Of a DNA stretch of 64,000 nucleotides, positions 3,985-52,994 are shown piece by piece. The first letter of the stretch is position 1, and each line of letters starts with the position of its first letter. Both the position numbers and the translations under genes were made by a program. Source of the stretch: Alphaproteobacteria bacterium (GTDB taxonomy: Bacteria > Pseudomonadota > Alphaproteobacteria > JANQMY01); the NCBI GenBank assembly GCA_028289425.1, contig JANQPL010000017.1, positions 186,001-250,000 of the forward strand. The letters are read 5' to 3'. Below the pieces are notes generated by a model that was not told where the DNA came from, did no database searches, and saw nothing but the letters and a program-made list of their open reading frames with translations.

Positions 3985-4178
3985 GAGGCGACGCTCGTGA
4001 TGGCAGGTTTCCTGGCTCGCGAGTCAGGGCGTCTCTCCGCCTTCCCAGACAATCTGTCCAGTGGCATACGTGAAGTGACGCTCGTCGCTTACAGTTGCGG
4101 GGGCAGCTTCGGCGTTGTTCGCAGAGCGAACGCACCGAATTCCCTTGAGCCCTTTCGGGACCATCACTGGGCGCACTT
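3985..4178 (-). promoter_or_regulatory. Cobalamin riboswitch (B12 box at about 4086-4107)
   Basis: The reverse complement contains GCTGCCCCCGCAACTGTAAGCGACGAGCGTCAC...TGCCACTGG...CTGGGAAGGCGGAGAGACGCCCTGACTCGCGAGCCAGGAAACCTGCC, the classical B12 box and riboswitch core, upstream of btuB. Confidence 0.93.
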
Positions 4179-4224
4179 AAACGGAAACTTGTCCGGCTGA
4201 CAAGTGCTGTTATGCGGGATGTCG

Positions 4225-29363: not shown

Positions 29364-29436
29364 CCGCCCCACTCCCCCGGCCCAACCTCCCCAAGGGTAC
29401 ACTCTTTCGGGTGCTTGGGCCGGGGGAGTGGGGCGG
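29364..29436. repeat. Long hairpin, family member A (degenerate loop)
   Basis: Perfect 22-bp stem CCGCCCCACTCCCCCGGCCCAA / TTGGGCCGGGGGAGTGGGGCGG; loop CCTCCCCAAGGGTACACTCTTTCGGGTGC is related to members B and C. Confidence 0.9.
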
Positions 29437-32793: not shown

Positions 32794-33435
32794 ATGTCTT
32801 CGATCCTCAAAATCTACGCCCCCGTGATTTCCACCTATGGGCGGATTGCGGCCATGACGGCGGAAGAAGCGGGACTGGTCTGGGAGAATGTTCCGACCCA
32901 TGCGGGCGCCGGCGAACACCGCGCACGGCACCCGTTCCAGAAAACGCCGGCTGTTGAAATTGACGGTATCCAGCTCTACGAGACCATCGCCATTTGTCAG
33001 TATGTGGATGATGTGCACGGCCGTGGGCAGCTTCAGCCGAAAGATCCGTTAGAGCGGGCACGCATGAGCCAATGGATTTCCATTGCAAATGCTTATGTCT
33101 TTCCCACGACGGAAAACGGATTGGTCTTGCCCCGCCTCGTGGTCCCCATGATGGGGGGCACGCCGCGGGAAGAGCTCATCGAGCAAGCGCTGCCGACCAT
33201 CGCGTATCAGATGACGCTCGTCAGCAACCGGCTCGAAGAAGCGGCATACCTGGCAGGTAATCGCTTTTCCCTCGCCGACATCTTTATGTACTGCATTTTG
33301 AGGGCCGTTCAGCTTACGCCGGAAGGGCGCATGATCTTCGATCAGCTTCTGCCTTTGAAAAAGTGGGCTAGCACTGTTTCGACCCGAAAAAGCGCGCAAG
33401 CGACCCAATGGTCGACGGAAGACTTTATGGATTAG
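32794..33435 (+). CDS. Glutathione S-transferase family protein
   Basis: KIYAPVISTYGRIAAMTAEEAGLVWENVPTHAGAGEHRARHPFQKTPAVEIDGIQLYETIAICQYVDD; C-terminal YLAGNRFSLADIFMYCIL. Confidence 0.85.
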   Translation: MSSILKIYAPVISTYGRIAAMTAEEAGLVWENVPTHAGAGEHRARHPFQKTPAVEIDGIQLYETIAICQYVDDVHGRGQLQPKDPLERARMSQWISIANAYVFPTTENGLVLPRLVVPMMGGTPREELIEQALPTIAYQMTLVSNRLEEAAYLAGNRFSLADIFMYCILRAVQLTPEGRMIFDQLLPLKKWASTVSTRKSAQATQWSTEDFMD

Positions 33436-33440
33436 CTTGG

Positions 33441-33512
33441 CCGTCCCGCTCCCCCTTCCCAACCACCCGATAAGGGTACCCTAGGGGTGGTTGGGAAGGG
33501 GGAGCGGGACGG
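33441..33512. repeat. Long hairpin, family member B
   Basis: Perfect 28-bp stem CCGTCCCGCTCCCCCTTCCCAACCACCC / GGGTGGTTGGGAAGGGGGAGCGGGACGG around the 16-nt core GATAAGGGTACCCTAG. Confidence 0.95.
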
Positions 33513-33531
33513 TCGTAGGAGATATCAAAAC

Positions 33532-33921
33532 ATGTCCGACAATCTCGCTGACTTCATGCCGTTCTCGAAGCTTATGGGCGTCCAGGTCACGGAAGCTACG
33601 AAGGAAAGAGTCGTGGGCACGCTGACGGTTGGGCCTGAGCTGTGCACCAGCAACAACATCATGCATGGCGGGGCGATGATGGCGTTTGCGGATACATTGG
33701 GGGCGATCGCCGCGTCCTTGAACCTGCCGGAGGGGGCCAATGGGACAACAACCATCGAAAGCAAAACCAATTTCCTAAGGGCCGCCCCGGAAGGGTCCAC
33801 GATCACCGCCGAAACCACGCCCGTCAATGTGGGTCGGCGGCTGTCGGTCTGGCAGACTAAACTGTTCCGCGAAGACGGCAAACCAGCGGCCATTATCACC
33901 CAATCGCAATTGGTGCTGTAA
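33532..33921 (+). CDS. PaaI family thioesterase (hotdog fold)
   Basis: PFSKLMGVQVTEATKERVVGTLTVGPELCTSNNIMHGGAMMAFADTLGAIAA...IESKTNFLRAAPEGSTITAETTPVNVGRRLSVWQTKLFREDGK. Confidence 0.88.
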   Translation: MSDNLADFMPFSKLMGVQVTEATKERVVGTLTVGPELCTSNNIMHGGAMMAFADTLGAIAASLNLPEGANGTTTIESKTNFLRAAPEGSTITAETTPVNVGRRLSVWQTKLFREDGKPAAIITQSQLVL

Positions 33922-52847: not shown

Positions 52848-52994
52848 GGATGAACCCCATGCACCCATTGTTGATGGGGCTAAGCCATCCCACGCCCCCA
52901 TCCCATCCACCCCCAGGGTACCCTTATCGGGTGGATGGGATGGGGGCGTGGGCCGGCCAGGTGTTCAAACATTGGATGAACCCCATGCACCCAT
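52848..52994. repeat. Pair of perfect 21-bp direct repeats bracketing hairpin C
   Basis: GGATGAACCCCATGCACCCAT at 52848-52868 and again at 52974-52994. Confidence 0.9.
52889..52952. repeat. Long hairpin, family member C
   Basis: Perfect 24-bp stem CCCACGCCCCCATCCCATCCACCC / GGGTGGATGGGATGGGGGCGTGGG around 16-nt core CCAGGGTACCCTTATC (reverse complement GATAAGGGTACCCTGG). Confidence 0.95.

Follow-up and report, generated by a model that had tools for sequence, protein, structure and literature searches.

Long hairpins in the window and their anatomy

The window analysed here is the whole stretch of 64,000 nucleotides, and a scan of it for inverted repeats with at least 90% pairing returned exactly three hairpins. 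The best of these (copy 1) lies between two tandem genes, with the stop codon of a GST gene at 33435 on one side and the ATG of a thioesterase gene at 33532 on the other. Positions 33441-33468 pair with 33485-33512 over 28 bp at 100%, enclosing a core of 16 nt, and when folded as DNA the element gave -41.9 kcal/mol compared with -16.2 for shuffled sequences (z = -11.6). Pairing and the scan both confirmed the 28-bp perfect stem and 16-nt core that an initial annotation had described at this site, and 19 nt separate the hairpin from the thioesterase ATG, in keeping with the annotated estimate of about 20 bp. The second copy, annotated as inverted with a 24-bp perfect stem, was also recovered, with 24 perfect inner pairs within arms of 29. 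The arms of the third, which had been called degenerate, are slightly degraded (31 nt, 90% paired). All three copies are intergenic, as had been claimed. The features are as follows.

29364..29436, minus strand: copy 3 (C12:215339-215459), core on the minus strand, 87.1 bits with the family model, in the convergent ferredoxin/chorismate mutase gap
33441..33512, plus strand: copy 1, 28-bp perfect arms, core GATAAGGGTACCCTAG in plus orientation, 107.8 bits, in the tandem GST/thioesterase gap
33469..33484, plus strand: core of copy 1, asymmetric, containing the palindrome AGGGTACCCT
52848..52867, plus strand: left direct repeat GGATGAACCCCATGCACCCA, beside copy 2
52884..52957, minus strand: copy 2, core GATAAGGGTACCCTGG on the minus strand, 104.1 bits, in the imuB/dnaE2 gap
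52974..52993, plus strand: right direct repeat GGATGAACCCCATGCACCCA, 126 bp from the left repeat

The window also holds a cobalamin riboswitch (RF00174, 115.5 bits) at 3985-4180 on the minus strand.

A covariance model was built from 34 aligned copies. The unit is about 110-120 bp long and comprises outer ends, stem and core. In the 34-copy alignment the outer ends are weak inverted repeats resembling TTTGTTGATTnnnCCTGGCC. The stem is G+C-rich and perfect over 24-34 bp, with the inner arm consensus CCCrCTCCCCCnnCCCAACCACCC, and the core, usually 14-17 nt, is asymmetric, consisting of GAtnn or GATA followed by AGGGTACCCT and nG. Across 202 arms, most positions of the C-tracts are about 99% invariant; positions 4, 12, 13 and 18 vary, and the spacer between CCCCC and CCC takes the states GT, T, TT, GG, AT or TG. 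Two kinds of insertion were found in the arms. A 43-nt G+C-rich hairpin (CCCCCGGGTCCGCGC..GCGCGGCCCGAGGAC..GGTTCAC) is inserted at one fixed point of a single arm in L002, L003, L020, L038, L245 and L246, and matching of the arms persists across it. The second is a GGCCAA-type A+T-rich stretch in one arm. The sequence GGTTGGCCAAtgtCGGttttTGGGGGAG is another recurrent insertion; it occupies a single arm and occurs in each of the two species compared (L174, L202, L203, L035 and L039). The G-rich arm fits a G-quadruplex-like pattern, G3N5G3N1-2G5N3G3, and only 3 of 414 spacer letters on the G-rich strand are G. Since conservation extends to the non-G positions 17 and 21, a quadruplex is no more than a possible reading.

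Distribution, bracketing repeats and mobility

The sequence AAGGGTACCCT had 44 matches genome-wide on both strands, compared with three for the reversed control, and 86 distinct hairpin copies were collected from the 5.4-Mb source genome (G000) with the covariance model and follow-up searches. The one congener compared (G001) is also hairpin-rich, with about 50 copies examined. Among 386 alphaproteobacterial genomes, a draw that counts G000 and G001, the family is present in 29, spread over 20 genera, and of 19 hairpins inspected in other genera, 15 pair perfectly over arms of 25-34 bp. Plasmids yielded a single copy, with 33-bp perfect arms, on pSA1 of Novosphingobium resinovorum; phage records and viral contigs yielded zero copies at the settings used. 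The initial annotation had proposed a scan of the genome and its relatives and had taken a lack of further copies as grounds against a family, an objection that these counts remove. A literature search, including a k-mer search, found no earlier description among the papers it covered. The hairpins form a genuine alphaproteobacterial palindrome family, apparently without a name, and are a variant of the dispersed extragenic palindromes. By raw counts from a simple purpose-made gene caller, taken without a background expectation, copies occupy 35 tandem, 16 convergent and 17 divergent gaps, and the same caller placed five further copies inside ORFs.

A direct repeat of 20 bp, GGATGAACCCCATGCACCCA, stands on either side of many copies; its sequence is always the same, and the two repeats are usually 123-129 bp apart. 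Tandem arrays occur with a period like that of the bracketing repeats, and solitary repeats were found at L249, L250 and L252. An 18-mer of the repeat had 85 matches in the genome at no more than two mismatches (control, 0). Such bracketing could arise from repeated use of one target, with a long duplication, or else from recombination of one repeat with another. Besides the two sites in the window, GGATGAACCCCATGCACCCA was noted at L249, L252, L253, L161, L165 and L244, and a boxA-like motif, GCT[C/G]TTTGACA, often stands roughly 70-245 bp before it in the same orientation. Together, the repeat and the motif resemble a set of related non-coding leaders or RNAs, for which Rfam gave no match.

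One candidate empty site was identified (L030:727-746 compared with L176:2342-2407, the second copy of L176), a single case that suggests mobility of the hairpin family. No clean short target-site duplication was found around the copies examined. A transposase was sought between paired hairpins at L007 and L040 and none was found; by inspection the intervening genes encode ordinary-looking enzymes of acetyltransferase, dehydrogenase and hydratase types. Like MITEs such as ERIC or NEMIS, the hairpins are short, dispersed and non-coding, with inverted ends, and some copies lie between direct repeats. They differ from MITEs in that a parental transposase was not found and in that their bracketing 20-bp repeat is one constant sequence, not a random target duplication.

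Matched arms and inverted cores

Comparison of arms within and between 123 hairpins revealed that inner arms differ by a mean of 0.74 nt within a hairpin and 2.64 nt between hairpins. The two arms are identical in 52% of hairpins, compared with 3% of cross-hairpin arm pairs; arm lengths, which fall into two classes, are equal in 118 of 123 hairpins; and 104 of 113 copies have the same spacer state in their two arms, where 18% agreement is expected. The arms are homogenised beyond the family background, as in hairpins maintained by template switching. Across the 36-pair stem the covariation score was 0.237, compared with 0.095 after shuffling and no more than 0.070 when partners were slid, and 17 of the 36 pairs carry changes on both sides. 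The inner stem shows few G-U intermediates, and many of the spacer switches are T/G transversions, for which a G-U intermediate cannot exist. The initial annotation had every change matched by the opposite arm. Matched states do dominate, but about half of the copies carry at least one uncompensated change within the inner 24 bp.

Orthologous sites were compared in two genomes, G000 and G001. Hairpins stand at the same places within flanks that align at about 71-87% identity, and their stems have diverged through substitutions and 1-nt indels that are matched between the arms; two of the window sites, GST/thioesterase and ferredoxin, lack synteny in the congener. Between L030 and L176, TT is replaced by GG and, on the opposite arm, AA by CC, with the flanks conserved. 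L138 and L195 have CCCCCTTCCC and CCCCCTCCC, respectively, with a matching deletion on the opposite arm and again with conserved flanks. In L007/L206, GG is replaced by TG and the opposite CC by CA in nearly unchanged flanks, and arms, core sequence and core orientation are all altered together, so that here one family member appears to have been replaced with another.

In 9 of 17 scored orthologous comparisons the asymmetric core has the opposite orientation (flank homology on both sides in 9 of the 17, on one side in the rest). L159 and L172 have an essentially identical rare core, GACAGGATACACTTG, in opposite orientations, a case best read as inversion in place; L058 and L202 also have a rare core in common. 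Compared with shuffled pairs, orthologous stems are slightly closer (p = 0.016) and orthologous cores not clearly so (p = 0.11); replacement from other copies must therefore contribute. Inversion of the core at orthologous loci is likewise a mark of template switching, although exchange with other copies may also cause it.

Origin and maintenance of the matched arms

Homogenised arms together with a centre that often flips point to DNA-level copying and exchange. We think it rather probable that the hairpins are dispersed, likely mobile palindromes kept perfect by template switching and by exchange among copies. A replication fork would stall at the hairpin or cruciform and the nascent strand would copy the opposite arm, a template switch that could repair one arm from the other and might flip the core. 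Stem variants would spread by exchange with the rest of the family and, with less support, new copies may insert into intergenic gaps by a putative activity directed at the conserved C-tract/G-tract arm. A host regulatory function would not be needed to account for the data. Arm homogenisation with inversion of the spacer or loop is a signature of polymerase template switching that derives from yeast genes and rRNA (PMC8604942, PMC8794818), and it is from this signature, rather than from a directly watched event, that we infer template switching here. The likeness extends to both homogenised arms and inverted spacers or loops. The hairpins of those studies, however, have short loops and occur at single loci or in rRNA stems, whereas the present family is dispersed and has cores of 14-17 nt, about half of which are flipped where sites were compared. 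Arm copying is not the sole process, since C-tracts are about 99% invariant while spacers vary; sequence constraint or family-wide exchange also acts.

Concerted evolution could in principle suffice: if other copies overwrote whole hairpins, matched stems and random core orientation would follow without any switching between arms. The joint change of spacer, core sequence and orientation in the almost identical flanks of L007/L206 is consistent with this, as are the near-shuffled likeness of orthologous cores (p = 0.11) and the uniformity of C-tracts across the genome. Conversion spreads matched arms, however, but alone makes no new matched states, and it does not readily account for L159/L172, which retain a rare core yet invert it, or for the rare core common to L058 and L202. 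We consider ectopic gene conversion unlikely as the whole explanation. The initial annotation had read the stems as a signature of selection or gene conversion on structure; a conversion-like process is possible, but selection on structure is not established, with cores inverted in 9 of 17 comparisons.

A class-wide mobile palindrome served by a dedicated hairpin-processing enzyme, which would flip the core and renew the arms during transposition, seems to us quite doubtful. Such a putative enzyme might, with the same small likelihood, recognise the C-tract/G-tract arm and the asymmetric TAC-centred core, and fold-back synthesis, in which one arm templates the other, is offered as an equally speculative example of its route.

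That the hairpins are transcribed as terminators, attenuators or mRNA stabilisers, with two-step compensatory mutations keeping the pairing, we regard as improbable. The strong covariation of the stem, with its 17 double-change pairs, speaks for this explanation, as do several copies that have two convergent stop codons 10-25 bp away. Selection on RNA does not, however, predict inverted cores, and template switching and exchange are preferred to it for this reason. Core orientation is also independent of gene direction (18:17), divergent-gap copies are as common as convergent ones (17 and 16), and the variable inner pairs switch nearly without G-U. The U-tract that follows the G+C-rich hairpin of an intrinsic terminator was sought at 33200-33700 and was absent after the stem of the best copy. 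A search of the hairpins against Rfam gave no family at or above its gathering score; miRNA matches at 33441-33512 fell below threshold, reflect only the long hairpin and were rejected. The terminator or attenuator role suggested by the initial annotation is thus not borne out, given the lack of a U-tract, the indifference to gene direction and the copies in divergent gaps.

The initial annotation had also likened the hairpins to REP elements and had proposed a check for a linked RAYT-type transposase. Like REP, BIME and REPIN elements (PMC3116915, PMC3733652), the family is of high copy, intergenic and palindromic, with compensatory changes within the doublet, tandem clusters and suspected mobility. 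It differs in having neither a GTAG/CGTC tag (none stands beside the stem in the 34-copy alignment) nor an internal small REP hairpin in the arm, and in its much longer perfect stem, inverting core and lack of a linked RAYT. CGTC-tagged REPs are likewise alphaproteobacterial, class-wide and without a known dedicated transposase (PMC3733652), but are 20-40 bp, tagged, with 4-5-nt loops and a CCA tail (PMC3733652), unlike the present family. By eye, CGTC-type REP-like repeats (e.g. CGTCATCACGAGGAGCGAAGCGACGACGTGATCCAGG) occur at about 575-640 of L032 and about 480-520 of L245 and apparently form a separate family. The comparison with a mobile palindrome holds for a multi-copy, intergenic and possibly mobile family, but not for the tag or the RAYT link.

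The source genome encodes two Y1_Tnp genes, and a RAYT-like Y1 transposase at L043 1098-1915 (G000:C19) lies about 0.7 kb from one hairpin. Y1_Tnp is also commoner in hairpin-positive genomes (14 of 29, compared with 61 of 357; p = 0.0002, uncorrected for genome size or phylogeny). No hairpin was found, however, in the fetched flanks of 31 relatives of this RAYT, some of which are cut short by contig ends, and a Y1_Tnp match is missing from 15 of the 29 hairpin genomes, some of them complete. This RAYT has a repeat of its own, AGTGCACTGTCACCG, on its flanks, and the repeat also lies near 15 of the 16 relatives checked; this terminal repeat is conserved around relatives in other Alphaproteobacteria. 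We judge the proximity at C19 coincidental and the linkage largely refuted, and mobilisation of a REP/REPIN family by a RAYT encoded in the source genome is hardly credible.

Functional RNA structure is usually supported by covariation at paired positions, but palindromic repeats call for caution. Here, in a large natural family, strong covariation is accompanied by inversion of the unpaired core. Because the unpaired core inverts too, the covariation is best explained by exchange and arm copying at the DNA level, not by selection on RNA pairing, and since such copying and exchange are indicated, matched changes are not proof of a working RNA. The family offers many natural loci at which to measure template switching and spacer inversion.
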